From Zygnema cylindricum (taxonomy: Eukaryota; Streptophyta; Zygnematophyceae; Zygnematales; Zygnemataceae): a stretch of DNA of 64,000 nucleotides. The stretch lies in assembly GCA_037447655.1 (NCBI GenBank), contig JBBHKE010002144.1, forward strand, positions 1 through 64,000. The letters are read 5' to 3'. Below are positions 22,810 to 56,009 of the stretch, in pieces. The notes beneath the pieces were generated by a model. The model was given only the letters and a program-made list of their open reading frames with translations, was not told the DNA's origin and searched no databases. The position numbers and the translations under genes were made by a program. Numbering within the stretch: the stretch's first letter is position 1; every line of letters starts with the position of its first letter.

Positions 22810-23434
22810 AATAGCTTACTACAGTACCGTGTCAGATTTGCGACGCTAATCATGATGCCACGTACTTCCACGATACCAAAAGTACAAAGAACAATAATGT
22901 TGGAAAAAAAAAGTACAAAATTTTCATTTTTTTTTGTTTTTTGTTTGACCGACCGTAACCGACCGTTTTTTTTTTTCCTGGTGAGTCAACCGACCGTAGC
23001 CGCCCGACCCCCAAAATTTGGCAACCGAATCCGTTCCGGATCCGGCGCGGGTGGTCGGTTAACAGTCGGTCACGGTTTCGGTTGACCGTTTGCGACCTCT
23101 GACCTTTGTTCCCACTTTCCACTGATCTGACGAATAACGTCGGCGCAATCCTCCACGACAAATGCGTTGACTGTTGTTCCAACTGATTCTATTCCGTACT
23201 CAGAAAATTGTATTACGCACTATCCGTTTTGTACGTCTTACGCTGTGCGTTTGTACGGTTGCCACATACGAAAAAGCACGACAAAATGCCGGATGTTAGC
23301 CGGCCATGAGTCCATTCCTAATTCTCCGTCAAACTCAGCCTCCCACCTCTGAATCCCACATTTTGTTTCCCTTCCTTCTCCCTTTATTTAGCTCTCCCCG
23401 TCGTTCTCCTCCTCGGCTGTCTCCTTTTATCAAA
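22810..23434 (+). promoter_or_regulatory. Upstream region and probable 5' UTR of the GIL1-like gene
   Basis: No separate gene is seen. The last 160 bases are pyrimidine-rich (for example CCTTCCTTCTCCC) and are conserved in the decayed copy at 17160-17340. That conservation marks them as part of the ancestral transcription unit. I cannot point to a confident TATA box or start site. Confidence 0.4.
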
Positions 23435-26331
23435 ATGTTTAATAAATTGGGTTTTCCCGCCGGGAATTCCTCGGCCAATCACGGCTCGGGCCATCATAGT
23501 TCCGAAGTGGTGACGCGGCACGACCCGACCAATCACACAGAACGAACCAATAGGGTGTCAGCGCCGCCCGTATCGGAGAATCGGCGCACTGCGGAAGAGC
23601 ATTGGAAATCCGCATTTAATTTCCTGGAAAGTGTAAATGGGAAAATTTCGAAGGAAGATTTCTTACCGTGCCAAAAGATCGTCGCAGGTATGAATCTAAC
23701 CTTTGTAAATCCTCGTAAACCCTCGTTGCTGAGACACGGCAATATGCTCATTCACTATCTCATTCAAAAACTGTTTCACTGCAGAATAGTTTTTAAAAAC
23801 GAGGAGTTTGTATGCGTGTGTTACTTCATTTTTCTTGGAATCCACAGTCTGGCAGATTCGGTTTTTCCTGGGTTTTGACTTGAAAATAAAACTATCTCTG
23901 AGTCGTGGTAACTGAATTTCTGCCAGAATTGGAGTTCTCCAGACACTCATGTCACGTTGTGCTACACTTGTTTTCTGTATACATTTTCTTTCTTTCTGGA
24001 TTTTTTTGAAGAATGTCAATGGAACATTTGCAGTTTTGGCAGGTAATTGTATGAACTATTTATTGCTATTGCTGATTAAAGTTGAACTGCTTATTTGCTT
24101 GCAGATTATGCAAAACATTTTGACGATGTGAAATTTATCCCTCAAGACGACGTTAAATCAATCCCTCAAGCCATCTTTTTTTTCAGAAGATTAGTGTTTT
24201 TGCCGCCGGGCTTTCTTCAGGAAATGCTAAACCAGTTTAAAGTGTCATCTCTATCCTTTGTCAAGCTAGGAAACCATCTTGCTAAAGAAGGCTTTCATTG
24301 GTTACTGAGCTATCCTGTTGATGACAACGAAAGGGCCACGTCATCTGGGCAACCAGCCTTACATTTCAATGGTCCAACGCTGGAGACCAACGCTCGTACC
24401 TTCCTGGAATGGCTGATTGATCAGGCATTGCAGTCACATGCTGACAGTCCGTACATTGTGACCCTGTTAAAGTTCTCATGTGAGCTTAAGAGTGAGCGCT
24501 ACACAGAGGCATTGGAGAAACGGTTGAGCAATCAGTTGCATAACCTGACGCTGGAAAGCCTTCAAGCCTTGAAAGAACAAACGGCGTTATCCATTATCGA
24601 CCGCTTCCGAAGCGGCAGCAGTTCTCCATCAAAAGAGACGTCGTCTGCGAGATCACTGGCAGACAGTTACCTTCTGTACTGTGGCGTTCGTCACAGTGAC
24701 GAATGGAAGGCCCCGCCAGGTCTTGCTTGCAATGACGCAATCCGAAGTTTCTTGGACCACCATCCGGAAGAAAGGAACAGCGGAACCCAACTGCACGAGT
24801 ATGGGGACCCTTCCAATGCCAAGAATGTGGGCACGAAAGGGGGTGGTTCGCCGATGCCAAATTCCAATTCCAGCCGGCCCGCGCCACAGGTGGGACTAAG
24901 GACTTCTGGAGACTCTGTCTGTCGGAATGAAAGATTCTGTCTGTCGAATCGATTGAAACCTGTTTTCCCTTTCAACCCCGTGCTTTTCCATTTTAGAATG
25001 TTCTTGATAATATGGCGATCCGTTGATGCTGGAGCTCATGATGAGCTGAAAATGGAAGGATTTGAAATCTGGCAAATTCTGACTGGAAATATGCGAATGC
25101 AGTTTGTACAAAGGTTAGGTTTTCTTTTTGTGGTTTTACTATTGTTATTTTCTTGTCTGAAAAATGCGATTAAATAAATGACTGTGCCACTTTAAATTAC
25201 CATGCGTTGACTCAACGCAACAGTTTTTTCACTTAGTAGTATTTCGAAATGAAGCTATTTTTGATTAACATAGGTTTCATGAAACTTCTCTTGCAGGTTC
25301 CCCTCAAATCGGATGAAGTAATCGCTTCTGAACTGAAGAAGACCAGAGAAGAACTGAAGAAGACCATAGAAGAACTGAAGAAGATCAGAGAAGAATCGAA
25401 GATGGAACACCACCATGTCCGTGAATTAGATATCCAGTTACACCAGGCAAGGTATACCATCCAAGAGCTAAAAAAAAATCAGTTTACGGCAAAAGAGCGC
25501 ATTTCCGAATTGGAAAATGACGTTCAAGCCCTTGAGACAGAACGTGCCAAGTTAAAGGAGGCAGACAGCGGCTCATATAGAGTGGATGGACCTGCTCCTG
25601 CTCATCTCACAACCGCTCTTTCTGACTTTCGAAAAGTCGTTTCCATTTTTATTCAAAGACTTTCGAAACTTTTTGAGCAGAAAGGAGTTGATTCGAACAA
25701 AATAGTCTCCCAGACACTGAATCACATAGTAAAACAAGATCGTACTGGCTTAAAGCATGTGTTGACCAGCCAAGTGGTCGACCTTATCTTTGTAAACTTT
25801 GAGAATGAGCAATTTCAAGCCGGTGGAGAGACATCCATAGATGTGATTTCTCGATGTAACGATCGTTTCAAAGAAAGCTCAGGCTTGACAAGTGACATGG
25901 CTCAGGAGATTCACAAGAAAAACCCAAAGTTTCAAGCTTTCTGTGGCGAAAAGTGGACACTTCTCCAGAGGAGTTTCATGAATAGTGGAAATGGCAGTGT
26001 TTATGATATCTCCAGTGTTATGGATGTGCTTTTTAGTGACTTTCAGAAGGTCAGTCTCTCCGCCTGGAAGATCCATCGCCTCGCGTTTTCATTCAATCCG
26101 CCTGCTTCGATTATCCGTGTGAAGGAAAATATTAGGGTAGACGACATTCAGGTGACGCTCATTCGTGCATTTGATGACGATTGGACGGAGGAGGAAAAAA
26201 AAAATGCAATTTCGGCATTCATGATCTTTCCTGGGTTCCGAATTAGAAGTAATGTCATTCCATGCCAGGTGTATCCAAAAGTGCCTAGCTCTAGAAAAGT
26301 CATTCTTGAAACTGATGTATCAACTTTGTAG
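23435..26331 (+). CDS. GIL1/IRKI-like (DUF641) coiled-coil protein with an unusual N-terminal region
   Basis: Three exons fit: 23435-23687 (donor CAG|GTATGA), 24105-24889 (acceptor TTGCAG, donor CAG|GTGGGA) and 25297-26331 (acceptor TTGCAG). The phases agree and give about 690 residues. Exon 3 starts with three near-identical ELKK-type heptad repeats and a coiled coil (about residues 353-434). A C-terminal region follows whose landmarks recall GIL1/IRKI: NPPASIIRVKENIRVDD near 615 and the ending MIFPGFRIRSNVIPCQVYP. Plant GIL1 acts in light-dependent gravitropism; IRKI interacts with a receptor kinase. Residues 1-346 match nothing I recognise. The start is chosen because the decayed copy at 17152 aligns from its own ATG. 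An alternative donor at 25114 is out of phase with exon 3. A possible alternative acceptor lies at 24186. Confidence 0.65.
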
Positions 26332-29500: not shown

Positions 29501-32500
29501 CGTTATGGGCCCACATTCCAACCTCGATAAGTTCGAAGGCACGAATTACCAACTATGGAGATGTCGGACTGAAGCAGCCCTTGAAGAGAGCGGTTGTTTG
29601 GGTATTGTTACCCGAACGGAGCTGCGTCCTGTTCCTGCAAAAGCAAACGATATCAAAGCCGACGAGAAGAAATCAATGGCAGAATTGGATACAAAGGAGA
29701 TCAAAGCAAAAAACACTTTGATCAGAGGTTTAGCCGATGACCACCTTCGCAACGTCACTCGGTGCAAATCTTCTGCGGAAATTTGGGAGTCACTTGCGAC
29801 GACTCACAAGCTTTCAGGAATGACTGCACAAATAAAGTTGGGCAAATCATTCATGACCACTATCTACCAAGACGGCACATCGATGGAGGCTTACACCTCA
29901 CATTACGCTAATCTCTTACCCGAGGCCGACGCTGTCGGTTTCATTCTTCCCATGGACACCAAGATCACACTTCTCATGCTATCTTTGCCCGTTGAGTACA
30001 AATTCATACTCACGTGGCTTGATCGATCAGACCCCACGACTTGGAAATGGAATGAGGTTGTCGGAGCACTCTTGAAAGACGAGTTTAACACCCAAATCAT
30101 GTCCAATCGTGAGCTCAATGGAAAGAGCTCCGCGTTCGCATCTGGAAAGGGGAGATTTTCCCACAAGGAGAAAGACAAAGGAGAAAGTCAGAATCAGGAC
30201 AAGAAAGACAAAAAGTGTTTCTAATACGACAAGCCCGGACACTTCATTCTGTTTGCCGAAATTACACTTATGAGAAGCAGCACGACAAGGTTGACGAATC
30301 GAAGCTAAAAAAGGGGAAAGGAAATGGGAAGGAGATCGTTCAATCGCAAGCCATGATGGCGTCCACCCTGTCGACCAATAACAACGATTGGATGGTGGAC
30401 ACAGGGGCGTCCGAACACATGTGTTACCACCGAGAGTGGTTCTCCGAATTCAAGGAGACCGCTCCCTCCCGCATATACATGGAGGACAATCACACGCCAC
30501 TCTGCACAGAAAAAGGGAGACATCGATATCGAGGCGTTAGTAGATGGCAGATTGGTTTCCGGCACAATCAAAAATGTGCTCTATGTTCCCAGCTTCAAAC
30601 GCAACCTCTACTCTTTTTCCCAAGCTAAAGACAAGGAAATCATCCCGATCTGGCAGAAAGAAGGAAAGATAAAGTGAGAAATGGACTTATCATCGCAGAA
30701 TGGGAGAGAATGGCGGATCGCACATATCGGTTGGAGTGCAGCTCAAAACCTTGATCCTTAGCCCTCGCAGCCCGAGCTTTACTTCAATCACAAGGAGAGA
30801 ACACCAAAGAGAAAGAGGAGATCAAGGAAGATGATGTTAGAAAAGAAACTACAATCAACAAAGAGAAGTTTGACAAGCTTATACAACCAACATAAAACCA
30901 ACTCCTCTGGCACAGGCGACTCGGCCATCTGCACACCGACGGAATGAAGAAACTAATTGCAAGCAACATGGCTAACGGAATAAGTCTTACCTCTGTCAAA
31001 GATTCCAAAGAACCTTGCCACGGTTGCGAGATGGGGAAACCCCATCGTCTTCTATTTCCAAAATCCGGAGGAACGAGGGCTACTCGCCCCGCTCGAACTA
31101 ATTCATGCCGACGTATGGGGCCCAACAAGGGTGCCCTCATCTGGTCGGAGAAGATACTTAGTCACCTTTATTGATGACTTCTCCCGGATGACTCACGCGT
31201 ACCTGCTACGACACAAAAGCGAGGTGTTTGAGAAAATTAAAGCGTTCAAAGCTATGGCTGAGAAAAAGCACGATACAAAAATCAAGTCCTTAAGGAGCGA
31301 CAACGGAGGAGAATATTTGTCTCCCGAGTTTAAGAAATTCCTCACCTCAGAAGGGATCGAACACCAATTGACAGCACCGGGAACTCCGCAACAGAATGGT
31401 GTAACGGAACGTATGAACCGAACGCTGTTGGAAATGTCGCGAAGCATGATGGCCACGCACACAGTCAGCTCCGATTTTCCGGAGAAACAGTCTACAAAGC
31501 AACATACCTCAAAAATCGATGCCCAACGAGGGCGTTAGATATTTCAATCCCGTTCAAAAAGTGGCCTGGCAGACGTCCTAATCTATCACACCTCAAAAAT
31601 TTTGGTAGCAGAGCCTACGCTTTCAACCACAACAATCAAGGAGGGATGCTAGCACCTAAAGCAATTGAGGGGATTTTCGTCGGATATGACGAACAATGCA
31701 AGGCCTATCGCATTGCAAACAAGAAGACAAAACAATCACAGTTACCAGAAACGTTAAGTTTGGGGAACTCCCGCAGACTGAAGACAGTGGGAGCCACACG
31801 AAAGGAATTGACAACTCACCCTCAATGTGGTCCCTAAGTGATGAAGAAATCGAGCGTGATACCAAGGCGGCAGAGGAAGTTGAATCATAAAGTGAAGGAA
31901 AAGAAACACCCTCTCCACCAAAGACCCCTGAACTACGTGCAATGGAAGAACAACCAACCGGTAAGGAACCTATTATAGGGCAAAAAGAGGACAACACCTT
32001 GTCTCAAATCGAAATTGATGAAGAGACACCGCCAGAAAAATCTACGCTTGCTAAGCAAAGAAAGAAGGGAAAAGAGACTGGCCTCTAACCCACAACCATT
32101 GATAAAAACAGCCGATCATGACGTCCTCCCCAAAGACTTGGTGAATGGTTGGATACCTCAAAGGTCCTAAGGAGGAAGTTCCCTGGAATGGCTCACGTTG
32201 AGGAGCCCACAAGCCTCAAAGAGGCATTCTCTAGAGGAGATAGTGAAAAGTGGAAATCAGCAGTAAACGAAGAGATGGCCTCCATTATGAAGAACAACAC
32301 AAGGACTCTCGAAGACCTGCCAGAAGGAAGAAAAGCAATTGGCAATAAGTGGACATTCAAGATCTAGCAAAATGTTGATGGCACATTTGAGCGTTATGAG
32401 GCGAGACTAGTTGCAAAGGGGTATACCTCGAAGGAAGGAATCGATTACCAAGAGACTTTCGCTCCAGTCGTCAAGTTCACATCCGTTCGAGCTCTCCTTG

Positions 32501-35056: not shown

Positions 35057-37321
35057 ATGGGCCCACCTTCACGAATTCCGGTTTTTGATGGGAGAGAATA
35101 TCTGTATTGGGCAGATCTTGTAAGGTCTTATTTTGTACAAGTGAAGCTTTTTGATGTTGTTAATGGATCTATGGTAGAAACTGATGTAAACTATGATCAA
35201 AAGAATGAGCAGGCTCTTCATTTGATAAAGTTAATGATATCTAAGGAGCTGCATATGACATACATTCAGGCTTCTAAAGCATCAGAGATTTGGGATGCTT
35301 TGAAAAAGACATATTCTAAGGCTAATGCACAACATGAGATTATAACTGCTGGGCAGATCTGGGAATATAAGTATACAGGCGGAAGCATGGCAGAATATTG
35401 CAATAAATTCAGACTTCTAGTTGCAGAAAATGCATGTTCAGGTGGTTCATTTCCTGAGTATCACCCAGCAATGATTTTAGTGAGGGGGCTTCCTAGTGAG
35501 TATAAAGGTGCCTATGATGAACTGAAAAAATTGGATAAGACACAGTGGAATCTAGCTAGAGTATGTGCTAGAAGAAGAAGCAAATCAGTTGGCATTTAAT
35601 TCTGGAAAGCCAGCTGTAGCTTACAATGCTCAGTTTCAGAGGGATAATAGATTTCAAGGAAATCAGTCCTTTCAGCAATATGAACGCTGTGTCTATTGCA
35701 ATAATAATGGTCATTTGTACAAGTTTTGTCCTTTGTATATAAAAGCGTGTGAAACAGGTTCTTACCGCAAAGCATGGAAGGTGAGAGGACCTCCATTTAC
35801 ACCGAAACCTCCGAGCAAAACCGCAGCTTTTTCAGCGGAGGAAGAGGAACCGGTGAAGGAGATGGAGAAGGAGAAATCAGAGGTTGTTAGTTTTCCTAAA
35901 ACTGACGACACCGAGTTCTTTGCAATGGCAAAGATGATGGAGGGAGAGAAAGATCTCGGGTGGATTATGGACTCCGGAAGTTCCTCCCATATGTGTTGGA
36001 ACAAATCCTATTTCAAGGATATGACACCTATCCCTACTCGTCAAATCTTTTATGCATGTGGTGCCACGGTGGAAGCTAATGCTAAGGGTAGCATAGATCT
36101 GAATTGTGAGATAGATGGCAAAGCTGTAAAAAGAACTTTGCATGATGTGTTATATGTTCCTAAATTTAAGAAAAATTTGTTTTCTACCTCAGTTGCAGAG
36201 AGTAAAGGTTTTGATGTTCTTCAGAGCAAAGGCAAAAAGATAGTAAACAAGGATGGGAGAGTAGCCTTAGTGGGAACTAGAGGCCCAAACATGTTGTATC
36301 GGATGGACTTGGTTAATAAAGTTGATTTTGTGTACTCCAGTGTCCTATCTGAAAATGTTTTGTGGCATAAAAGGCTTGGGCATGTTCATAATGAGAGGCT
36401 TGAAAAGATGGTGAAGACAAATATGATAGATGGTGTCAAGCTTGGTGAAAAGGAATCCCATGTTTGTGATGGTTGTGCTCTAGGAAAGCTTCATAAGCTT
36501 CCCCTACCACAGACTTCAGATTATCGAGCAAAGGATCTTCTCGGCCTTATCCACTCGGATGTATGGGGACCGGCCAAAGTTCCTTCTCTTGGTGGAAGAA
36601 AATACCTTGTTACCTTCATTAATGACTCTTTGGAGTCAGGGGAGGCAGATTTTATGTCCTCCATTCCTTACAGGCAGATCGTCGGAAGCCTCATCTACTT
36701 CATGAACTGTACCCGTCCTGATATTGCTGCAGCTGTTGGAGCCTTAAGCCGAAGTTTGCAAAATCCAAAGAAGTCAGATTGAGAGGCAGCAAAGAGAGTT
36801 CTTCGATATCTTGCAGGAACTCGAAACCTCCGACTCTCTCTCGATGGAGAGGAAGTAAAAATTCAGACATGGAGCGATGCGAGCTATGGAGATATGCCAA
36901 GCCGACGCTCTACTAGTGGATACATTCTCAAGATTGGAAGTGGGACATGCTGCTGGAGCAGCAAACTTCAGAAGGTGACAGCTCAGTCTACTATGGAGGC
37001 TGAGTACATGGCGGCTAGCGCAGCCGTCAAAGAGCTACTTTGGGTAAAGTCTCTCCTTCAAGAGCTTTTGTTTATGCAATCTGGACCTCAGGTAGTGTGG
37101 TGTGACAATCAGGCTGCCATTGCTATTGCATCTAACCCTAGCCATCACTTTAAGAGCAAACACATTGATATCAAGCTACACTTTGTGAGAGAGAAGGTTA
37201 TGGGAAGAGTTCTGAAACTCAGTTATTTACCAGATGAGGAGATGGTTGCTGACATGATGACTAAACCCTTGCTTGCACCTAAATTAAAGTTTTGCAGAGA
37301 GGCATGTGGCTTAAGTGGCTA
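35057..37321 (+). pseudogene. Copia element 3, internally deleted gag-protease-RNase H
   Basis: The frame starts MGPPSRIPVFDG. A frameshift near 35570 is the only break in gag. A perfect knuckle CVYCNNNGHLYKFC is near 35690 and the protease motif WIMDSGSSSHMC near 35960. The integrase zinc region follows, with LLGLIHSDVWGPAKVPS near 36540. After KYLVTFINDS, near 36630, the frame jumps directly into the late pol motif IPYRQIVGSLIYFMN. The integrase core and reverse transcriptase are therefore missing without loss of frame. A single stop at about 36781 precedes an intact RNase H (AQSTMEAEYMA, ADMMTKPL). Such a deleted copy could only move with enzymes supplied in trans. Its own 5' end is separated by the insertion of element 2. 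Confidence 0.9.
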
Positions 37322-38631
37322 GTAGAGTCTAAAGCTTTAGGGGAGTGTTGTTTTGGAAAGCTTTAGTCCTCTCTATGCCTTGATTGTGAGAGAGAGAGAG
37401 AGTTTCACGACTTAGCATATGTTTGGTTGTAAGTTCGTTTCATTACACACCAGAATTGATGTTCCACTATATCGGTAGGGAGTACACCTTTGTTTACACT
37501 CCCAAGACACAAGTCACTACAAGAAAGAAGACACTCCAGAATATCCGATTGTTTGTGCATAGATATACTTGAGGACAAAATGGCACATGGAGATTTGTCT
37601 ACGGTGCTGAATGTGATTTGTATGCGGCTGAGGGAGACCACCGACAAATGCTGGTCCGTGTGAACCACATACACGACAAACGACGTGGCATATAGAATTC
37701 TACTCCTTTGTAAAAATCAAGTTAAGTAGATTTTTGTCTTTGTGTGGTTAGTTGATTAGTAAAGGAATCTTTTTGTGTGACATACCTTGTTCGGTTTGAG
37801 CCGTAGAGCTCAGTCTACTATGGAGGCTGAGTACATGGCGGCTAGCGCAGCCGTCAAAGAGCTACTTTGGGTAAAGTCTCTCCTTCAAGAGCTTTTGTTT
37901 ATGCAATCTGGACCTCAGGTAGTGTGGTGTGACAATCAGGCTGCCATTGCTATTGCATCTAACCCTAGCCATCACTTTAAGAGCAAATACATTGATATCA
38001 AGCTACACTTTGTGAGAGAGAAGGTTATGGGAAGAGTTCTGAAACTCGGTTATTTACCAGATGAGGAGATGGTTGCTGATATGATGACTAAACCCTTGCC
38101 TGCACCTAAATTAAAGTTTTGCAAAGACGCATGTGGCTTAAGTGGCTAGCAGAGTCTAAAGCTTTAGGGGAGTGTTGTTTTGGAAAGCTTTAGTCCTCTC
38201 TATGCCTCGATTGTGTGAGAGAGAGAGTTTCACGACTTAGCATATGTTTGGTTGTAAGTTCGTTTCATTACACACCAAAATTGATGTTCCACTAGATCGG
38301 TAGGGAGTACACCTTTGTATACACTCCCAAGACACAAGTCACTACAAGAAAGAAGACACTCTAGAATATCCGATTGTTTGTGCATAGATATACTTGAGGA
38401 CAAAATGGCACATGGAGATTTGTCTACGGTGCCGAATGTGATATGTACGCGGCTGAGGGAGACCACCGACAAATGCTGGTCCGTGTGAACCACATACACG
38501 ACAAATGACGTGGCATATAGAATTCTACTCCTTTGTAAAAATCAAGTTAAGTAGATTTTTGTCTTTGTGTGGTTAGTTGATTAGTAAAGGAATCTTTTTG
38601 TGTGACGTACCTTGTTCGGTTTGAGCCGTAG
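36980..38631 (+). repeat. 827-bp tandem duplication of RNase H end plus LTR start
   Basis: GCTCAGTCTACTATGGAGGC occurs at 36981 and 37808, and GGTTTGAGCCGTAG ends both units (about 37806 and 38631). The two copies differ at few positions. The duplication yields a second, partial RNase H frame (37807-38151). Confidence 0.9.
37346..37806 (+). mobile_element. Copia family-3 LTR, first copy, truncated at the duplication junction
   Basis: It starts TGTTGTTTTGGAAAGC after the purine tract AGGGGAG. It is cut off where the second duplication unit begins. Confidence 0.75.
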
Positions 38632-44782: not shown

Positions 44783-45906
44783 ATGTGTAATCCTTCGGCC
44801 ATGTCCGCCCAGCCTCATGGTGGACGATACGTCGTCGCTCTCGACTTTGGAACCAAGTTCTCCGGCATCGCATACTCTCGCAAGTCATTTCTTGACGATG
44901 TCGTGCTTAGCCACGATTGGCCGGCGCAGAAAGCGGCTGCGATGTCGAACTGCAAAACGCCAACTGCACATTGGTACATGCAGGACGAGCGAGGTTGTTG
45001 GGTCGCACGTGCGTGGGGCTAGCCGGCCATCGTCAGTTACACCGAAGCAACCAATGCTGCAAAATGTGACACTAGCGGTAGAACAAAGGCAGAAAAAACT
45101 GCAGGATATATTCTAAAGAGATTCAAGCTTCAATTGTCACGTGAAGGCATGCTTGATATCCAGGGCATGCTTCCTCTTTGTGTTACTGCTAACATGGCGA
45201 TTGCCGACTACTTGCGCCGCATGGGTGAGTTTGTTTTGTAAGATCTGCATAAAAGATTTGGCTCACACGTGCAAATGAAGAAGTAGTGCAATCTGGGAAG
45301 AAAAAGAGAAACCCAAAATGCGAAAATCTTACCCGAGAAGCCGAGATGACTGTCGAAGGATCTCCTCCTCTCAAAGTCATTCTGGAGCTAGAGGCGGCCT
45401 CCACATATTGTCACCACAAGCAGTTCGTCACACCGCTACAAAACGACAAAATATTGGTTTCTTGACGCGGGAGGAGGCATAGTGGACATTGTAGTTCATG
45501 AGAAGGTGGGAAATGGAGCGGAGTTGAAAGAGGTAACAAGGAGCAGTGGAGGACTGTGCGGGTCTTCTTTCCTTGATGAAACCACAAGATAAGCTGTTTA
45601 ACTAGCTTCTTGCAGCAAGATCTGGACATGATAGTAAAGTTGACGAAGCAATGGGATGAAATCAAGAGGTCATTCAGGTGAGATCGCATCGATCCTTTCA
45701 AAACTCTAAAATTTGACAGAAATCGAGGTACATGTCTTTCTTAGTTTCACATTTGAAATTCTTTTTTCTTCGTCGTGAGATAACTGTGTCTGTATGCTGA
45801 TTTACTCATGTCCCCCACGAATATCCAACTGTTTGATTCTTCTGAACAATCATAGTTTTGTTGAAAAATGGTGTTGCATTTTTATGTTGTCATTGGTGAG
45901 GATGCT
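44783..45906 (+). pseudogene. HSPA12-like (HSP70 superfamily) pseudogene, 5' part
   Basis: The frame opens MSAQPHGGRYVVALDFGTKFSGIAYSR, with the first phosphate-binding loop of the HSP70/actin ATPase fold. Out-of-frame pieces continue colinearly. MLPLCVTANMAIADYLRRM is near 45170 and AIWEEKEKPKMRK near 45285. GSPPLKVILELEAASTYC follows near 45358. LDAGGGIVDIVVHE (second phosphate loop) is near 45462, then SSGGLCGSSFLDE. At least three frameshifts separate these pieces. A GTGAGT-type junction at about 45225 and a donor at 45679 suggest introns. The HSPA12 branch has the ATPase but a divergent substrate region. The gene is cut at 45907 by the TRIM/gypsy block and resumes at 54602. Confidence 0.85.
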
Positions 45907-45911
45907 GTGGT
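45907..45911. other. Target-site duplication GTGGT (left) of the TRIM array
   Basis: GTGGT here and at 54597-54601 flank the whole inserted block. Removing the block and one copy restores an open reading frame across the join (ending GEDAVVTFEVPSK). Confidence 0.85.
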
Positions 45912-46137
45912 TGCTGAGGATCGGCGATATTCTACATATCGCATGGGCGCCAAAGGGAAAACTTTGGTTAAATGGCCAAGCCCGGGATCGAACCCGGGAC
46001 CTTGTGTTAGCCGTACACTAGCTCTACCAACTCAGCTACCTGGCCGATTGTGCATGCAAGCGCTTGAACCCGAATTTACGGCAATGAACGGCGCACTAGC
46101 GAAACCTGCATATACTGCGATACACATGTGTGAAGTC
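45912..46137 (-). mobile_element. TRIM LTR (copy d) containing a tRNA-like Pol III unit
   Basis: It is colinear with the LTRs at 54044 and 54351, from TGCTGAGGATCGGCG to GTGTGAAGTC, where a copia LTR fragment interrupts it about 25 bp before its expected outer end. The tRNA-like module (45974-46045, minus) keeps acceptor GGCCAGG pairing with CTTGGCC and a perfect B-box GGTTCGATCCC. A TTTT run follows downstream on the minus strand. Confidence 0.85.
45974..46045 (-). other. tRNA-like module of TRIM LTR d
   Basis: 72 nt with a 7-bp acceptor stem (one G-U pair), A-box TAGCTGAGTTGG, B-box GGTTCGATCCC and T-stem CCGGG/CCCGG. The anticodon stem GTGT/ACAC closes loop ACGGCTA, which lacks U33, so it is tRNA-like rather than a decoding tRNA. 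Confidence 0.75.
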
Positions 46138-46308
46138 TGTTGAAATTTATAGATTTCTAGAGTATTTTCTAAGTTTAAATATGTTTTTATAAAATGAAAG
46201 GAAAAAGGACGGACAACGTGCCTCCACCTCCGCTCTCTAGCTCCCATACTTGTTGTAGTCACTGAAGGTAAGAGAGAGAGGTTGATCCATGGCTGCCTTA
46301 GTTCAACA
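46138..46308 (+). mobile_element. Fragment of a copia LTR (start of the LTR, plus orientation)
   Basis: It starts TGTTGAAATT and runs through GCCTCCACCTCC, CCATACTTGTTGTAGTC and CCATGGCTGCCTTAG. These match, in order, the first 170 bases of the element-1 LTR family. It then changes abruptly into the truncated gypsy LTR. Confidence 0.75.
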
Positions 46309-46309
46309 G

Positions 46310-47032
46310 ACAACTATTTGTAGTAAGAGATTTCAATGCAAAATGCCTTTCCTCCAATTTGGTATTAATCGCTCAGGACCAAGATCAGCCGGAATTTCCA
46401 CAAACTTTTCCAAAGGAAAAGATGTCTACTCTCCTCTTACACTTCACTATTTATCCATCATCGCCCTGGACTCGCCAGGCCAGAGTCAACGCTCCGTTTT
46501 AACAGGCTTTTACCTGGGCCAATCATTGATCAGCAAAGACTCAGACTGACCAATGCAAAAACGTGCGAAATCTCTTACTAACTACTTAGCGCTTTACTAA
46601 CCAATCAAACGTTACGTTTCACTACGTAACATTTACGTGCAAAATTGCGCGCCAAACGAAACGCGACTTCGCACGATCGTGCATAACAAATTTCGCACGC
46701 GAAACTTCCTACGAAATTCCCTTAAGTGAAAGTGACGTTTCGTACCAAAATTTGTACGAAACGAAGTACCGTGCATACTAAACGTTTCATTAGAACTTTA
46801 TGAAACGTACGCGCGTAATTTCGGTACTAATTTGACCCTTAACCCGTTTCAATGATACCCACTTGTTATTTAGACCCCACGCTGTCACCTAAATACACCC
46901 ATCGCTATAACTTTTAAAATATAACTCCAAATAGCGTGATTCTTTTGCGGGCGTCTACCAAATTTAGTACTCTATAATCATAACACCTAAATACCCCTTT
47001 ATAAACAAGTTCGATCCGCTATTGCTGTTACA
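46310..47032 (-). mobile_element. Gypsy element 3' LTR, truncated at its outer end
   Basis: It reads as identical to 53133-53844 over about 712 bp. The outer roughly 250 bp, present in the 5' LTR, are missing, and a copia LTR fragment takes their place. The purine tract AAGGAGGGGATGA lies just before it on the minus strand (47033-47045). Confidence 0.9.
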
Positions 47033-47080
47033 TCATCCCCTCCTTATTTTTAACTGACCTCAGTTAAACACATTTAATTC

Positions 47081-50000
47081 TCAAGACGGGACTTCTATAT
47101 TATTATCCCTCCAATACCTTTGTAAAAACTCAGAATTTTTATCCTCTAAAGTCAACTCATCTTCAGGCCTTCCTAGATAATGCACTTGCCAGAATATAGT
47201 ATCACCAACCTTGAACCGTTGACCAACCCAATCTATTACCCATCTGTGGACTTCAGGTTCTATAATTATTGAGGGATCCAATTCCAGTTCTCTTTCTGTT
47301 GGTCGAAGATTCGCTGGTTTCAGTTGGCTGATGTGTATCACTGGATGAATTTTTGTTGAAGGCGGAAAATCCAATTTGGCAGCAACTGACGATATCATCT
47401 CGATTACAGTAAATGGTCCAATGTACTTAGGGGCAAATTTCCCCGTAGGATCCGATTGTCCCTCAATCTTGCACCTGTAATGAGTTGTAGAAAGCCAAAC
47501 CTTGTCACCTGTGCGTAACACCCAATCACCCCGTTTACGGTTAGCATTTAATTCTTGCCTCCTTTGTGCCTCCACTAATGAATCCCGGACAGTTTTCCAA
47601 ATTGTTTGAACGTATTCCCAAAACTCTGTTCCAGAACCCCTATTCTCTTGAGTGACCCCTGTTATTAAGTCCAATGCTTCTCTAGGTTGGTATCCGTATG
47701 CAACCTTAAATGGCGAGAATCCTGTACTAGCATGTTTACATGAATTGTATGCAAATTCCATTAATGGCAGTTTAGATTCCCATGTGTTCTGAACTCCACT
47801 GCAAACAGTCCTGAGCATTTCCTCTAGTGTACGATTCATCCTTTCTGTCTGTCCATCTGTCTGAGGATGATAAGCAGTACTCATCTTCAATTCAGTGCCT
47901 AAGTTTTGCTGCAATTCTTTCCAAAATGCAGATGTAAATTTAGAATCTCTATCACTGACTATAGACAGGGGAACTCCATGATGTCTGACCACGTTGTCAA
48001 AATATAACTTTGCAATATCTACAACTGAATGAGTAGTTTTACAAGGGATAAAGATTGCCATTTTACTGAACCTATCGACTACGACCATGATACTGTCATT
48101 TCTTCTAGATGTAGCTGGTAACCTGACAATAAAATCCATACTGACAGATTCCCATGGTTTTTCGGGGATATCTAAAGGTTTTAAGAGACCTCTAGGTTTC
48201 TGGTTACTAGGTTTACTCTGTTGGCAAGGGACACAACTTTCCACGTGTCTCGACACCTCCTTTGCCATCCCTGGCCAAAACAATCTACTCTGCAACCGAC
48301 TAAGAGTTTTATCTCGACCAAGATGTCCTAAATGCTCATGGGCTTCCTGTAAAAGTTGTTTTCTCAAGTCTCCCATTTCAGGAATGCATAACCTATCCCC
48401 TGTTCGCAAATACAGTAAACCACTTCTATTCTAAAGTTTTTGACATGCCTCTCATTCAGTGGGTCAGAATTCCCTCCCGAAATATTCTTGCAAATCACAA
48501 CAAAATAAGGATCTTTATCATAACCATATCTAACTGTATCTAAAAACAATTCATCTTGAACCATAACACTTATTTCAAAACATCTACTTAAAGGATCTGC
48601 AACTACATTTGTCTTCCCAGGAATATGTTTGACATTAAATTTGAAATATGCTAATTTTTGCATCCACCTAACCTGTCTGCCAGTCATAATCTGTGCATCA
48701 CTTAATCTTTGCAAATAAGAAAGTGCTTTATTATCACAGTGAACTGTAAATTCTTTATTATGCAAATAACATCGCCATTTCACCAATGCATGTACAATTG
48801 CAAGTAATTCTTTTTCTTGTGCTGTATAGTTCTTTTCAGCATCATTGAATTTTCTGGACTCAAAAGCAATTGGATGAAAGTGTTTGCCGACTTTTTGACT
48901 TATGACTGCACCTAGACCTTTGTCAAATGCATCTGTAGTGATCAGAACTTCAAATTCTCCAGCAGGGTCAGGATACACCAGTGTAGGGGCAGAGGTCAAC
49001 TTCCCTTTTAGTTCCTCGAATGCTCTCTCTTGATCAGCTCCCCACACAAACGTCTCTTTTTCCCGAAGTAAATCCGTCAACGGTGCAGCGATCATACTGA
49101 AGTTCTTTATAAATTTCCTGTAGTAAGTGGCCAATCCCAAAAACGATCTAACTTCTGTGACATTAGTAGGTTGTTTCCAGTTTTGGATTGCTAAAATTTT
49201 GGATGGGTCTGTTTTAACACCTTCCCCACTAACTATATGTCCCAAAAATAATTGTTCACTTTTAAGAAAACTAGATTTTGACAATTTTCCATATAATTTT
49301 CTTTCTCTTAACCTTTCCAACACTCTTTTTAAATGAATTACATGTTGTTCTTTAGATTCACTATAGACTAAAATATCGTCTATAACCACTTGGACAAACT
49401 CATCTATGTAATCTGAAAAGGTTTGGTTCATTAATCTTTGGTAAGTAGGCGGTGCATTCGTTAAGCCGAATGGCATCACGATCCATTCAAAATGACCCAC
49501 TCTAGTTCTGAAAGCAGTTTTATCAACATCCTCAATTCTAATTGGCACCTGATTAAAGCCACTACGCAGGTCAATCAATGAAAATACTTTAGCACCTTTT
49601 AAACGATCTATCAAATCAGAAATTAAAGGTAACGGATACTTATCCTTCACCGTAATCTTGTTCAGACTACGATAATCGACGCACATTCTCAACGTTCCGT
49701 CCTTCTTTTTGACGAAAAGAACTGGTGCTCCGTACGGTGATTTGCTGGGTTGAATATGTCCTTTCTCTAGGAGTTCTTTGATCTGTTTCTTTAACTCCTC
49801 TTGCTCAAAGAAACTGTGCTTATAAATTCCTGTGACAGGAGGGTTACATCCAGGTTCCAAGTTAATAACATGTTCTACATCTCGGGAAGGTGGCCTTCCT
49901 GAGGGTAAATCACTTGGAAAAACATCCCGGAATTCAAAAATCAAATCCTTAATAGTAGCATCAGGTGTATTAATGTCAGTTACAAAATCATATTTTTGTT

Positions 50001-50730
50001 TTTCAAGATTTTTAGTGGTGTCTGATTCAGGAATAACATGAATGTTAGTGTTTTCTCCCCCCCCTTCATCAGTAACTGCCTCAGTTACTAATAACAAGAA
50101 AGCATGATTTGTTTTATCTTTTAAATGCTTTTTAAATTGTTTAGCGGAAATCAAACCTTCTACTCCCAATCTGGTTATGTTATTTATATGATTCCTATGC
50201 AATTTCTTAGGAGATAATGCTTGCAAAACCTTCCAACCGTTTTCAGACTTCACTTTTAAGGTATTAATTTCCCAATTAATTTGAGGATTATGTTCTGTTA
50301 ACCAAGGCTTTCCCAGAATTAGTTCTTCACTTCCCAAATTCATTATTTCACACACAACTTTCATTTTATGACCCTGGATATCAACTTCTATCGTGTCAGT
50401 TTGTAAGTCTAATGTGGACTTATTACCATTTGCCACTTGAACATGTAAAGGCTTTTCCCTTATGACAGTAGGAATTTTATTTTCCTCTACAAACTTATGT
50501 GAAATAAAATTATGTGTGGCACCTGAATCAACCATTACTTTCAACGGCTTTCCTTCCACTAATGACTCGAATCTAATCAAACTGTGTCTGGTGTCGTCAT
50601 TACTTAGCTGTCCTAACATAGGTCTGTTGTTGAGAATTTCACCAGAAGGATTCTTTAAACTATGCAGTGTAGTGAGAATCATAATAAATTCAGCTATCCT
50701 AACTTTTCCATTCATTAATTTGCCCTCCAA
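47081..50730 (-). CDS. Gypsy pol: protease-RT-RNase H-integrase with a chromodomain-like tail
   Basis: Minus-strand pol has the protease motif VDSGATHNF (residues 67-75). The reverse transcriptase contains [12 protein letters not shown] and catalytic VIDDIL (about residue 448). RNase H has [10 protein letters not shown] and DNKALSYL, then the frame ends at 48364. Integrase continues from 48409 in another frame. It has the zinc site H24/H29/C59/C62 and catalytic D92, D153 and E189, with 35 residues between the last two. The last 60 residues (VIDWVGQRF...[17 protein letters not shown]) look like a diverged chromodomain. A single frameshift near 48430 separates RNase H from integrase; otherwise everything is intact. 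The frame is open upstream of the listed ATG and overlaps the gag end. The order PR-RT-RH-IN identifies Ty3/gypsy. Confidence 0.9.
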
Positions 50731-50780
50731 AGTTAACTCTTTAACTTCTGGATCCAGTTGACTAAACTGAGGACTTTCAG

Positions 50781-52103
50781 TTAGTCCTTTCCGTTTCCCA
50801 CCTCCTGGGCTTCCTGCTCAGCTAGATATAATGCAATATCCTCTTGGAGACCTTCATTTACATCGACTGTTTTGAGAGAACCTTTATCTGTACAGTCTTT
50901 AGCGTAATGATCTGGACCTCCACATTTGAAACAAGTGACTTTCTTTTTGGGTTTTGTGCACTCTCTACTAAAATGTCCCTCCTCTCCACAGTTATAACAG
51001 TTAATCTTTTTCAATTGTGCACACTCAAATGCTCTATGACCCCTTTTCTGACAAATAGTGCATGTGGTAATGGTAAGGTTAGACTTCTGGGCATTAATGT
51101 TTGGTTTAGGACTTTTAATGTACCCCCCTCTAATGTTAAATCTATTTCCTGCATTAACGCTATGTCCACCCCTTTGATTTCCCCTGAAGATATTTTGCCT
51201 ATTCACCAGTCCAGCATTCATTCCCTCTTCAACAAATTCCTCCTCATCCCACTGTGATACTTCATTTAAATTACCCCTGAGTGATCGAGTTTCCCGATTA
51301 TACCCCAACTGATCCTCTAATTCCAATGACTTATCTTGTAATTCCTTCAAATTATTAAAATTTTGATGTTTTAGCTCAGATTTCATTATAGGATTCAAAT
51401 AGTTCAAGAAATGCAATTTAGCCATTTCATCAGTCAAACCTATGACATGAATACTAGATGAGTCAAATTCCACAATATAATCCTTCACAGATCCAGTCTG
51501 CTTACAATTCAGCCACTTTTCTTCCATTCTAGATTTAAAAGTGACAGACAAGAAACGCGATTTGATCGCGGTTTTAAAAGTTTCCCAATCAGCATTATCA
51601 GGAATCAATTTAGACCTTCTCTGAGTATAATACCAAATCTGAGCATCGCCTTTCAGACAGTTAACAGCAAAAGAAGTGTAATCATCACGATCGCAATTTC
51701 TAGACTCCAAATAATATTCCATATGAAAAATCCAAGCATCCAACTCATCAATCTTCTTACCATCAAACGATGGTGCCTCACTAATAGACAATTTCAGATC
51801 TCTTATCTTCTTAGGTCTATCATGATCATCCTCCCTAAAACTGGCATTTCTTTTACTACTCTCACCCTTTTGGTCATTCATATTATTGTTGGTCTGAATT
51901 AAGCTAATAAGTTCATCTAATTTCTCATTTGAAACATTTCCATTTTCTTTAACAACTTTCAATTCACTTTTCAATTCGGAAATGGTTTCATCCACAGCGG
52001 TAGCATGATTATTAAATCTTTTGACCAATTTCACAGTTCGCTTCTTCAACACATTCAAAGCATTCTCCATTTCACGTTTCCATGCAGAATTTGCCATTAT
52101 CAC
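50781..52103 (-). CDS. Gypsy gag with three CCHC zinc knuckles
   Basis: This is an uninterrupted 440-codon frame. The first half has coiled-coil-like heptads. A retrotransposon capsid region follows ([27 protein letters not shown]). Near the C-terminus are three knuckles, [28 protein letters not shown] and [14 protein letters not shown], all C-X2-C-X4-H-X4-C. Most plant gypsy gags have one or two. Gag would form the cytoplasmic particle and bind the RNA. It ends ...EVGNGKD, with a slippery heptamer just before the stop. Confidence 0.9.
50793..50799 (-). promoter_or_regulatory. Candidate -1 ribosomal frameshift site GGGAAAC
   Basis: In gag frame the codons read GTG GGA AAC, so G GGA AAC fits the X XXY YYZ rule. 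The gag stop lies three codons later. The -1 frame is open from here into pol. Confidence 0.7.
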
Positions 52104-52863
52104 ACAATTAAATCAAGCAAAAGGAAAGATAGAGTATACTTTCCCAAAGAAATTTGATGCAGATTTGAAGTCCTTAGATTGCTCCAATCCAAAACTTTTC
52201 TCCTTAACAAATCCTTTGAAAAGATCAAGATCTGAGAAATTAAAAAGACATTGACAATAAGTTAGTACAAATTCAAATTTTCAATTTCCCAACATTGAAA
52301 CAGAAATGTAAGAATTTCCCCACCAATTTTGCAATAGCAAAAATTGAAAGCTCTCAAAGGTAAGATTTCACCATAAATTTTGCAACAGCAAAACTGAAAT
52401 CAATCAAAGGTAACAATTTAGGGTTTGAAAAGTTTTGAGTCATTTCTGGACTCCTTTGCTCTTGAAGAAGTAAAGTACTCCACTTTCCTTCTCCTCCATT
52501 AGCAAATTCCCCATTTCCCACTACATCAGGATCTTTTGTTCTATAATCCTCACATCCTCACCCTTCATGGCTTCAAGCCCTCCCTCTACACATGAATCAT
52601 TGCTAGGAGAAGGCAAGTTTGTTTGGCCTCTAGGTAATTGGAGTGAGCTTCGGCGGTGGCTACACTGCCCACCCCGCCTTAGTCCTTAGGACCTGAGCAC
52701 GCCCCACATCTAACCAGCGGCCGCTGGCAGTGTGATCACTCAGTTTCCCTCCAATCCCCTACCACTTCACATTGTGGTTCTACCGACACAGGTTAGAGCA
52801 CCCTCACCGGTCACGGCAATCGATATTCGAGTGAGCTAACTTCTCCCTGGTTTCTAACCAAAG
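52104..52863 (-). other. Gypsy 5' leader
   Basis: It lies between the primer-binding site and gag and contains no gene. A GC-rich stretch at about 52640-52800 (GCGGCCGCTGG) stands out from the AT-rich rest and may be structured. Confidence 0.6.
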
Positions 52864-52875
52864 CTCCGATACCAT
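52864..52875 (-). other. Gypsy primer-binding site (tRNA-iMet 3' end type)
   Basis: Minus strand TGGTATCGGAGC, two bases from the LTR end. It differs by one base from the canonical TGGTATCAGAGC. The TRIM elements nearby use the same variant. Confidence 0.85.
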
Positions 52876-52877
52876 AT

Positions 52878-53844
52878 GTAACAGGATCTCCTACCTCTCA
52901 GAAAATCCCATTACTACAAATATTCCCAACCACACATTCCACACATTGGAAATTACACATCCACATTGGACAACACTCACATAAGGATCAACTTTAAATT
53001 AGAAGAAGCTTTTGTCCACATAACATTAGCTTGGTCTCTTGCCCTCGTGGCTCAACCCTTCTTATTTAAGTGTTTTCCACTACCCTCCACTCTTAATAAT
53101 TATATCTCTTAACTACTAAAACACTATTTAGTTAGTAAGAGATTTCAATGCAAAATGCCTTTCCTCCAATTTGGTATTAATCGCTCAGGACCAAGATCAG
53201 CCGGAATTTCCACAAACTTTTCCAAAGGAAAAGATGTCTACTCTCCTCTTACACTTCACTATTTATCCATCATCGCCCTGGACTCGCCAGGCCAGAGTCA
53301 ACGCTCCGTTTTAACAGGCTTTTACCTGGGCCAATCATTGATCAGCAAAGACTCAGACTGACCAATGCAAAAACGTGCGAAATCTCTTACTAACTACTTA
53401 GCGCTTTACTAACCAATCAAACGTTACGTTTCACTACGTAACATTTACGTGCAAAATTGCGCGCCAAACGAAACGCGACTTCGCACGATCGTGCATAACA
53501 AATTTCGCACGCGAAACTTCCTACGAAATTCCCTTAAGTGAAAGTGACGTTTCGTACCAAAATTTGTACGAAACGAAGTACCGTGCATACTAAACGTTTC
53601 ATTAGAACTTTATGAAACGTACGCGCGTAATTTCGGTACTAATTTGACCCTTAACCCGTTTCAATGATACCCACTTGTTATTTAGACCCCACGCTGTCAC
53701 CTAAATACACCCATCGCTATAACTTTTAAAATATAACTCCAAATAGCGTGATTCTTTTGCGGGCGTCTACCAAATTTAGTACTCTATAATCATAACACCT
53801 AAATACCCCTTTATAAACAAGTTCGATCCGCTATTGCTGTTACA
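52878..53844 (-). mobile_element. Gypsy element 5' LTR, complete
   Basis: The LTR is 967 bp with inverted ends TGTAACAG and CTGTTACA. The outer flank is TCTAC (53845-53849), part of the TRIM LTR into which it inserted. The other copy of this duplication is lost with the truncated 3' LTR. Confidence 0.9.
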
Positions 53845-53982
53845 TCTACCAACTAAGCTACCTGGCCAATTGTGCATGCAAGCTCCTGAAACCGAATGAA
53901 CGGCAATGAACGGTGCACTAGCGGATCAGCATATACTGTGATACACATGTGTGGAGTCCGAAATGTGGATATTCCTCCAACA
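53845..53982 (-). mobile_element. TRIM LTR (copy c), interrupted by the gypsy insertion
   Basis: The 5' part (minus orientation) survives from CCAACA at 53982 to the D-arm of its tRNA-like module, where the gypsy LTR begins. Confidence 0.85.
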
Positions 53983-54043
53983 CGCCCGCTCACGATGAAC
54001 TCCATCTCGTGTGGCTTGCCGACGCCCCCTAGCTCCGATACCA
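53983..54043 (-). mobile_element. TRIM internal domain, 61 bp
   Basis: Minus strand: primer-binding site TGGTATCGGAGC (54032-54043) directly after LTR b, a short spacer GCAAGCCACACGAGATGG, and a purine stretch before the next LTR. It has no coding capacity. Confidence 0.85.
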
Positions 54044-54289
54044 TGTTGAGGATCGACGATACTCTACATATCGCATGGGCACCAAAGTGAAAAATTTAGT
54101 TAATTTCCAAGCCGGGATCGAACCCGAGACTTTGTGTCAGCCGTACACTAGCTCTACCAATTGAGCTACCCGACCGATTGTGCATGCAAGCGCTTGAAAC
54201 CGAATTTACGGCAATGAACGGTGCACTAGCGGAACCAGCATATACTGCGATACACATGTGTGGAGTCCGAAGTGGATCTTCCTCCAACG
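54044..54289 (-). mobile_element. TRIM LTR (copy b) with tRNA-like unit at 54105-54176
   Basis: 246 bp, minus strand from C(G)TTGGAGGAAG to CCTCAACA. The internal tRNA-like module has A-box TAGCTCAATTGG and B-box GGTTCGATCCC. A TTTTT run about 15 nt downstream could end Pol III transcription within the LTR. Confidence 0.85.
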
Positions 54290-54350
54290 CACCCCCTCAC
54301 GATGAACTCCATCTCGTGTGGCTTGCCAACGCCCCCTAGCTCCGATACCA
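54290..54350 (-). mobile_element. TRIM internal domain, 61 bp (second copy)
   Basis: Same as 53983-54043, with primer-binding site at 54339-54350 and GTGAGGGGGTG as the purine tract. Sharing of LTR b between two internal domains makes this a tandem array. Confidence 0.85.
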
Positions 54351-54596
54351 TGTTGAGGATCGGCGATATTCTACATATCGCATGGGCACCAAAGTGAAAA
54401 ATTTAGTTAATGGCCAAGCCGAGATCAAACCCGGGACCTTGTGTCAGCCGTACACTAGCTCTACCAACTGAGCTACCCGGCCGATTGTGCATGCAAGCGC
54501 CTGAAACCGAATTTACGGCAATGAACGGTGCACTGGCGAAACCAGCATATACTGCGATACACACGTGTGGAGTCCGAAGTGCACATTCCTCCAACA
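54351..54596 (-). mobile_element. TRIM LTR (copy a), outermost, with tRNA-like unit at 54412-54482
   Basis: 246 bp, minus strand from TGTTGGAGGAATGTGC to CGATCCTCAACA. The module has a consensus A-box TAGCTCAGTTGG and a one-base-changed B-box, followed by TTTTT at 54401-54397. It is bordered outside by the target duplication GTGGT (54597-54601). Confidence 0.9.
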
Positions 54597-54601
54597 GTGG
54601 T

Positions 54602-55335
54602 AACCTTTGAAGTTCCGAGCAAGCTTGCGACTGGAGAAGACGGGTGCGAATGAACCGGATTTTTATGTGATAGAGCTTTCGCTTGAGGACATGAGGGCAA
54701 TTTTTGACCCCGAAGTAAATAAAGTTATCGACCTTGTGAGGGCACAACTCTTAGCGGCTAAGAAATGGGAAGCCATTCTCGCAGTGGGGGGGGCTCTCAG
54801 AAAACGCATATCTCATTAAGAGACTGAAGGAGAATTTCGAAAGTACAACTGCGGTTGAACTGTTTCTGGTGCGCCCAATCCCGGTGCCGCCATCTGTCAC
54901 GGAGCAATACTACAGTTGCTGCATCCAGAAAAAAATCTTTCGAGAGTCGCACGAAAAACGTATGGAATCGCTAAATGCAGGCTCTATGAGAATGGTGATC
55001 CAGAAAGCAAACAGGTTGTCCTCCGCAACAAATGAGTTTTATGCAACAATATGTTTGAAGTATTTGTGAGAAATAGAGAAACAATCGAGACCGATTCGGT
55101 CGTAAAACGATTATTTTATCCATTGGAGGCTAGTCAAAAAAGTATGGAAATCTCAGTGTATAGTGCCGAATTGAAGTCTCCCACTTTTGTGGACGAGAGA
55201 GGAGTGGTATTGGATGGCACATTTACAGTCGACATGCGTAAGACCTGGCTTGGGAAGAAAAGGGAGGTGGAGGTCAGCATGTCTTTTGGAAAAACGTGTA
55301 TTGAAGTGACGGCGCGTGGAATCAATTTCAAATAA
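54602..55335 (+). pseudogene. HSPA12-like pseudogene, 3' part
   Basis: It resumes the frame cut at 45906. VTFEVPSKLATGED is followed, after a frameshift near 54650, by VIELSLEDMRAIFDPEVNKV and the HSP70 family feature ILAVGG. A run of eight G at about 54785-54793 shifts the frame again before LSENAYLIKRLKENF. Another shift near 55050 leads to the C-terminal piece FEVFVRNRETIETDS ... VSMSFGKTCIEVTARGINFK, ending at 55335. The order of motifs follows HSPA12-type proteins. With 44783-45906 the locus has at least six frame breaks besides the 8.7-kb insertion, so it was probably already dead, or died soon after. Confidence 0.85.
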
Positions 55336-56009
55336 GGAAAAAATTCATCGAAGTTGCCAGTAAGATTTGAGGCATGACTCTTCGACATCACATGGCAAAC
55401 TCTACTAAATGGATAACTAGTTGTAGGAAAAGGCATGTGAGAACTGTTAGTGTGCATAGAAAAGGATATAATAACTGATAGTGTGCAACATAGAAAAGCA
55501 GCCGGTTCGTTTATGCCAACTGTGCAATTGTAAACTGACAGTTTATTGCCTCGCCGTTGAATAGAAATATCAGCTTTTAGAGTAAATATAAATCAACTGT
55601 ATGAATAGATTACTTGATGGTGGATTCAATGTAATTTCTTATTTGTAATTTATTGGACCAAAGTTATTTAAATTTTATTGTTTTTGGTATTGTTGAGCAG
55701 CGACAGCCTTGTTCATGGATGGTTCTAAAATGACAAGATCTGAAGGGATGGTTGAAAATATAGATTTAATAAATAGCAATAATCACATTATGTTAATAAA
55801 TTACAATAGTTACAATTTTGGAGGTTAACATATATATATATATATTCGGAATAACACATCATACTAAAATCATCAAAACGTCAAGAAATTTTTAAATAGT
55901 ATGTCGTCAAGTACTTTTCTCTTTTATCTGCATTTTTGTATTATATTGGCTAAAGTTTCTCTTTGTTGATAGCGATGCCATCTTAAAAATTGACAAAGCA
56001 CCAAAACTG
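55336..56009. other. 3' flank of the HSPA12-like pseudogene; no gene
   Basis: AT-rich. A short (TA)n run, ATATATATATATAT, lies near 55832. 'AGTGTGCA' recurs within 55450-55490. Confidence 0.5.

Follow-up and report, generated by a model that had tools for sequence, protein, structure and literature searches.

The 64-kb window analysed here, the whole stretch of Zygnema cylindricum contig JBBHKE010002144.1 presented above, contains at 45912-54596 a block that we consider, with high confidence, to be an old tandem array of a Helenus-type terminal-repeat retrotransposon in miniature (TRIM), that is, a non-autonomous long terminal repeat (LTR) retrotransposon with a tRNA-derived sequence in its LTR, operating by the mechanism proposed below. 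As read from the sequence, the block combines an LTR-interior layout, a primer-binding site (PBS), a 5-bp target site duplication (TSD), insertion into an Hsp70-family gene, a tRNA-like module inside the LTR and two later nested insertions. We infer that the TRIM was transcribed by RNA polymerase III (Pol III).

Array layout and insertion site

The elements are read on the minus strand, on which the order from 54596 down to 45912 is LTR b, an interior, LTR a, a second interior, LTR d, a Ty3/Gypsy element, a piece of an LTR from another family, and LTR c. LTR b (54351-54596) is the 5' LTR of the array and is complete, with 246 bp and the ends TGTTGG...CAACA. LTR a (54044-54289) has the same length and starts with CG instead of TG. 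The two differ at 18 of 246 positions, including 14 transitions (92.7% identity), and the preliminary description of this DNA, which gave their length correctly, overstated their similarity as near-identical. It was right about two partial LTRs. LTR c (45912-46137) has lost roughly 22 nt from the start of U3 and retains an intact 3' end beside the target duplication, and LTR d (53845-53982) consists of U3 and the 5' half of the tRNA-like module and is broken by the nested Gypsy element.

The two internal domains (54290-54350 and 53983-54043) are each 61 bp long and differ at three of 61 positions. Both contain the PBS TGGTATCGGAGC (54339-54350 and 54032-54043), which adjoins the LTR without a spacer in two of two units, as first described. 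The purine stretch reported earlier is weak; the candidate polypurine tract (PPT) before the 3' LTR reads GTGAGGGGGTG in the first interior and GTGAGCGGGCG in the second. One LTR-interior-LTR unit amounts to 246 + 61 + 246 = 553 bp, which fits a TRIM (a short gene-free interior and less than about 1 kb in total). Independently of the LTR reading, Tandem Repeats Finder reported a period of 307 bp with 2.4 copies at 53845-54596. A third interior between LTR c and LTR d seems to have been lost, and the array now seen consists of four LTRs and two interiors, old copies that look dead.

The entire block is enclosed by the 5-bp duplication GTGGT (45907-45911 on the left and 54597-54601 on the right), and the earlier observation of an array with LTRs, interiors, PBS and TSD is confirmed. 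The array splits an Hsp70-family pseudogene at about 44801-45911 and 54602-55374. Compared with the relative P0003 (PF00012), the left flank matches residues 1-266 with 50% identity and the right flank matches residues 323-569 with 57% identity. Joining the flanks with a single GTGGT left between them gives a stretch, GEDAVVTFEVPSKL, that aligns without gaps to GDERVKYFDVPNKL of P0003, with seven of 14 residues identical; the BLAST matches to P0003 end on either side of the junction, and the alignment across it was read by eye. Since the flanks join ungapped against an Hsp70-family relative, the block entered a single site. The interrupted gene now carries stops and frame changes. A splice site at the junction, with the frame restored by the empty site, was considered and rejected, as no AG fits that frame in the present sequence. 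The right flank has five relatives in the protein database, for which the only named host is the liverwort Calypogeia fissa (two of the five rows). No match to the right flank was found among solved structures, and three frames of each flank gave no Pfam family.

The PBS TGGTATCGGAGC is presumably the complement of the 3' end of initiator tRNA-Met, with one position differing. Elsewhere in the window, it occurs at one further place, 52863-52874 in the nested Gypsy element, and one place more, TGGTAGCAGAGC at 31603, comes up when a single mismatch to TGGTATCAGAGC is tolerated. On both strands of 50 mononucleotide-shuffled versions of the window, the exact 12-mer turned up a single time. If the 3' end of the host initiator tRNA-Met is GCTCCGATACCA, the PBS variant common to the TRIM and the Gypsy element would be accounted for. 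The letters of the variant PBS, used as a query of the open-licence PMC literature, returned no retrotransposon paper by title. Self-priming by the module was rejected, as the 3' end of the module matches the PBS complement over the first three bases only. The 3' end of the tRNA-like sequence of Helenus likewise does not pair with its PBS, according to the extracts of Kojima 2024 (PMC10886601) on which we draw throughout.

The tRNA-like module and its proposed transcription

The Rfam tRNA model, run over 45700-55000 (up to E 1), matched corresponding places in three LTRs, with scores of 40.1 bits for LTR c, 38.2 bits for LTR b and 23.2 bits for LTR a, the last below the gathering score of 29 bits. 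The tRNA covariance-model check suggested in the preliminary description thus supports the module. The module is whole in three of the four LTRs, two above the gathering score and one below, and LTR d retains its 5' half, cut by the Gypsy element. The best-preserved copy, that of LTR c (45973-46045), has the A box TAGCTGAGTTGG and the B box GGTTCGATCCC. The module of LTR b (54411-54482, LTR nt 115-186) has the A box TAGCTCAGTTGG and a mutated B box, GGTTTGATCTC. That of LTR a (54108-54172) has the A box TAGCTCAATTGG, an intact B box GGTTCGATCCC and a damaged acceptor stem. The earlier statement that each LTR carries a tRNA-type unit holds for three LTRs in the sense of a whole module, with the defects just given in a and b, and for half a module in LTR d. 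A T-run follows, of five T residues (T5) in LTRs a and b and four (T4) in LTR c. In LTR b, the T5 run (54397-54401, LTR nt 196-200) starts 10 nt past the module and may serve as a Pol III terminator and as the end of R.

All three Rfam matches in this interval were tRNA, and no 5S rRNA-derived sequence was found in the LTR there up to E 1. In a run at the gathering threshold over the whole 64 kb, LTR c was the only array module retained, and a tRNA-Gln was found elsewhere at 58-129. ARAGORN also calls only LTR c among the array modules, as tRNA-Ala(GGC). Annotators of tRNA genes should be warned that ARAGORN takes this retroelement copy for a tRNA gene.

The module sits at one fixed position within the LTR repeat. 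A target duplication of its own was not found, as the best match between its 10-base flanks was seven and 737 of 1000 shuffles were as good. The possibility raised earlier that the module is a separate short interspersed nuclear element (SINE) inserted into some LTRs was examined locally and is not borne out, with the module whole in three of four LTRs and no duplication around it. The anatomy proposed in the preliminary description, a tandemly arranged TRIM that carries a tRNA-type Pol III unit in its LTR, is supported.

In the proposed mechanism, transcription by Pol III would begin in the 5' LTR, at the module (LTR nt 115) or close to it, and some passes would read through the first T5 (LTR nt 196-200). 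The read-through RNA would cover U5, the PBS and the interior, continue across the U3 of the 3' LTR and end at the second T5. R would then be about 86 nt, comprising the module and the T-run, with 114 nt for U3, 46 nt for U5 and about 393 nt for the genomic RNA of one LTR-interior-LTR unit. Since the first T5, at element position 196, is upstream of the PBS at computed position 247, the full-length RNA would require leaky termination, and a leaky terminator would divide the ~86-nt product from the ~393-nt genomic RNA. Initiator-Met tRNA would prime minus-strand synthesis, and an autonomous LTR element would supply reverse transcriptase and integrase in trans. The tandem units may stem from LTR-LTR recombination or from transcripts that read through. 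We regard as unlikely, taken as a whole, the further proposal that the Helenus design originated independently in plants outside the lycophyte lineage, with module and T-run being exactly R, a leaky terminator switching between ~86 and ~393 nt, and a Gypsy element with the shared variant PBS as the enzyme source.

Several observations weigh against a Helenus-type TRIM transcribed in this way. The T5 precedes the PBS, and if termination at this run were strict, no genomic RNA could be made. Between LTRs a and b, changes amount to 8/72 in the module, 4/92 in the part of U3 common to three LTRs (which excludes the first ~22 nt of U3, absent from LTR c), 8/114 in the whole U3 and 2/60 in U5. The corresponding counts for the module, the shared U3 part and U5 are 9/73, 5/92 and 7/61 between a and c, and 5/73, 7/92 and 5/61 between b and c. 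Compared with the remainder of the LTR, the module has changed more between a and b and to about the same degree between b and c. Since it is no better kept than other LTR parts, the copies in the window give no indication that selection has acted on it. In addition to the mutated B box of LTR b and the damaged acceptor stem of LTR a, the minimum-energy folds of both modules are not cloverleaf. The PPT is weak, being short and interrupted in one unit. Exact-pattern scans of viral contigs for the interior with its PBS and for the module, and of genome contigs for the module, gave no matches, in collections not meant for plants.

The lack of preferential conservation, the T5 between module and PBS, and a TATA-like TATAT motif seen in the LTR alignment near nt 46-50 are also what one would expect of an ordinary TRIM transcribed by RNA polymerase II (Pol II) from a U3 promoter, whose LTR had picked up a passenger, either a tRNA pseudogene or the head of a SINE. 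We consider this explanation somewhat unlikely. The best-preserved copy, c, retains full A and B boxes at 40.1 bits, the T-run lies where a Pol III terminator is expected, and LTR conservation in Helenus centres on boxes A and B, as described in the extracts of Kojima 2024 (PMC10886601). A tRNA-derived part followed by a T-run, and the tandem period of 307, would also suit a cluster of SINEs or tRNA pseudogenes that was tandemly amplified and imitates LTRs. Such a cluster is hard to reconcile with the TG...CA ends of LTR b, a PBS placed without a spacer after the repeat, the 5-bp TSD around the block, the 114 bp of repeat ahead of the tRNA-like part and the missing duplication at the module, and we judge it very improbable.

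Candidate helpers and nested insertions

For the helper step alone, the mobilising element may have been of a Copia family rather than a Gypsy element like the nested one, a choice to which we give slightly less than even weight. The start of the TRIM, TGTTG, is as in the local Copia LTRs (TGTTGAAA and TGTTGTTT), whereas the Gypsy LTR has TGTAACA...TGTTACA. The similarity between TRIM and Gypsy is not above that of shuffled sequences, which were as good in 354 of 500 and 240 of 500 cases for the interior ends and in 129 of 200 for the LTR. The 5-bp duplication also points to Copia in the extracts of Kojima 2024 (PMC10886601), where 5-bp duplications are linked with Copia (in fungi) and 4-bp duplications with Gypsy (in animals).

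On the other side, the nested Gypsy element shares the one-base variant primer site TGGTATCGGAGC with the TRIM, as the preliminary description noted, whereas in two Copia families, those with LTR borders that were read, the sequence there is GTTATGGGCCCAC (9333-9345 on the minus strand and 29502-29514 on the plus strand, in each case no more than one base away from the LTR end). We take GTTATGGGCCCAC to be complementary to the anticodon arm of initiator tRNA-Met, a different part of the tRNA from that matched by TGGTATCGGAGC. Since TGGTATCGGAGC is common to TRIM and Gypsy and Copia carries GTTATGGGCCCAC, priming of the Gypsy type is favoured. The Copia gag frame (V-M-G-P) runs through GTTATGGGCCCAC, and this candidate primer site may be coding; its role as a primer site is therefore unproven. 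The earlier suggestion of the Gypsy element as helper thus keeps the common PBS variant in its favour, and the interior and LTR comparisons and the TSD pairing do not support it.

The nested Ty3/Gypsy element (46313-53844, minus strand) has a complete LTR at 52877-53844 and a truncated one at 46313-47032, which are 99.6% identical over 724 columns. It encodes, on the same strand, gag (50781-52103), protease, reverse transcriptase and RNaseH (48364-50730) and integrase (47081-48409). Since its LTRs are near-uniform and the TRIM copies are diverged, the Gypsy element arrived later. Among the best 120 of 4700 Gypsy matches, the rows with a named source come from algae and green plants, with identities of 40-55%, and are not diagnostic of the host.

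The segment 46138-46312 (minus strand, 175 bp) is the truncated end of another LTR family and aligns with 10358-10184 (75.6% identity, 176 columns, E 7.5e-29). This family is also present at 9347-10358, where it was taken as a Copia LTR. The segment, with LTR c on one side and the truncated LTR of the Gypsy element on the other, is a second nested insertion, probably followed by a deletion. It was also considered as a decayed TRIM interior, with a local match score of 25 that three of 500 shuffles equalled. Since the match to the other LTR end runs throughout the segment, this interpretation was dropped, and the segment is not counted as part of the TRIM.

Farther away in the window, gene fragments lie at 23306-26331. 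The part at 25249-26331 has a relative, P0001, that is 62% identical and carries an NPH3 domain, and there is a weak GIL1/IRKI C-terminal match of 24.9 bits, below the cut-off of 27. Taken by themselves, these matches and the Calypogeia fissa relatives of the array flank would point to a land plant, perhaps a bryophyte, as the host. A tandem duplication at 36980-38515 is 97% identical over 711 columns. A short dispersed repeat around GTTATGGGCTTTTCATGTGATCTTCTTAG is found at 501, 20529, 43143, 56720 and 57125, on both strands and with one copy slightly different.

Relation to known retroelements

The array resembles tRNA-derived SINEs (SINE2) in its internal promoter of tRNA type with a T-run behind it. 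Unlike the array, SINEs have no LTRs, PBS or 5-bp integrase-type duplications. The TA-TRIMs and SMARTs of Gao et al. 2016 (PMC4717578) are similar in their tandem LTR-interior units within one TSD. In the portions of that paper available here, Cassandra is the only such element with a small-RNA sequence, tRNA is unmentioned in the main text, and no TRIMs were found in Physcomitrella. Cassandra has a Pol III-type module in its LTR, forms tandem arrays of multiple LTRs and interiors, and uses the PBS TGGTATCAGAGC, as given in excerpts of PMC7215508. It differs in that its module is 5S, in contrast to the tRNA-like module here, and in its 18-bp overlap, as cited in the extracts of PMC10886601, compared with the proposed R of about 86 nt.

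The closest description is that of Helenus (TRIMp3), defined in the extracts of Kojima 2024 (PMC10886601) as LTR retroelements with a tRNA-like sequence in their LTRs. The same extracts name Selaginella moellendorffii as the only plant with Helenus (LTR of 120 bp, interior of 85 bp, 5-bp TSDs), discuss termination for Cassandra and contain no experiment on Pol III transcription of Helenus. The view in the preliminary description that a tRNA-like TRIM with so short an interior is unusual does not hold, as the 85-bp interior of the Selaginella element was already in print. A search of the open-licence PMC literature from 2020 on for Helenus or TRIMp3 returned the original paper alone.

As far as these extracts describe Helenus, the array shares with it a short non-autonomous LTR element, A and B boxes in the tRNA-like part of the LTR, and a PBS; its PPT-like tract, a further trait of Helenus, is weak. 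Its 5-bp TSD is as in fungal and plant Helenus, its 553 bp fall within the published range of 311-1263 bp, and tandem arrays are in print for LTR-11_DR (PMC10886601). The differences are the lengths of LTR and interior (246 and 61 bp, against 120 and 85 bp in Selaginella) and the PBS of the array, which differs by one base from the type that matches the 3' end of initiator tRNA-Met. Since the Helenus design and tandem arrays are already in print, the array would be a further member rather than a new kind, and it probably represents a further plant Helenus family. If true, such a family, at a locus with a liverwort as the sole named source of protein relatives, would support a repeated origin of tRNA-promoted TRIMs, and the array may offer a compact case for studying how a Pol III retroelement reads beyond its terminator to produce full-length RNA.

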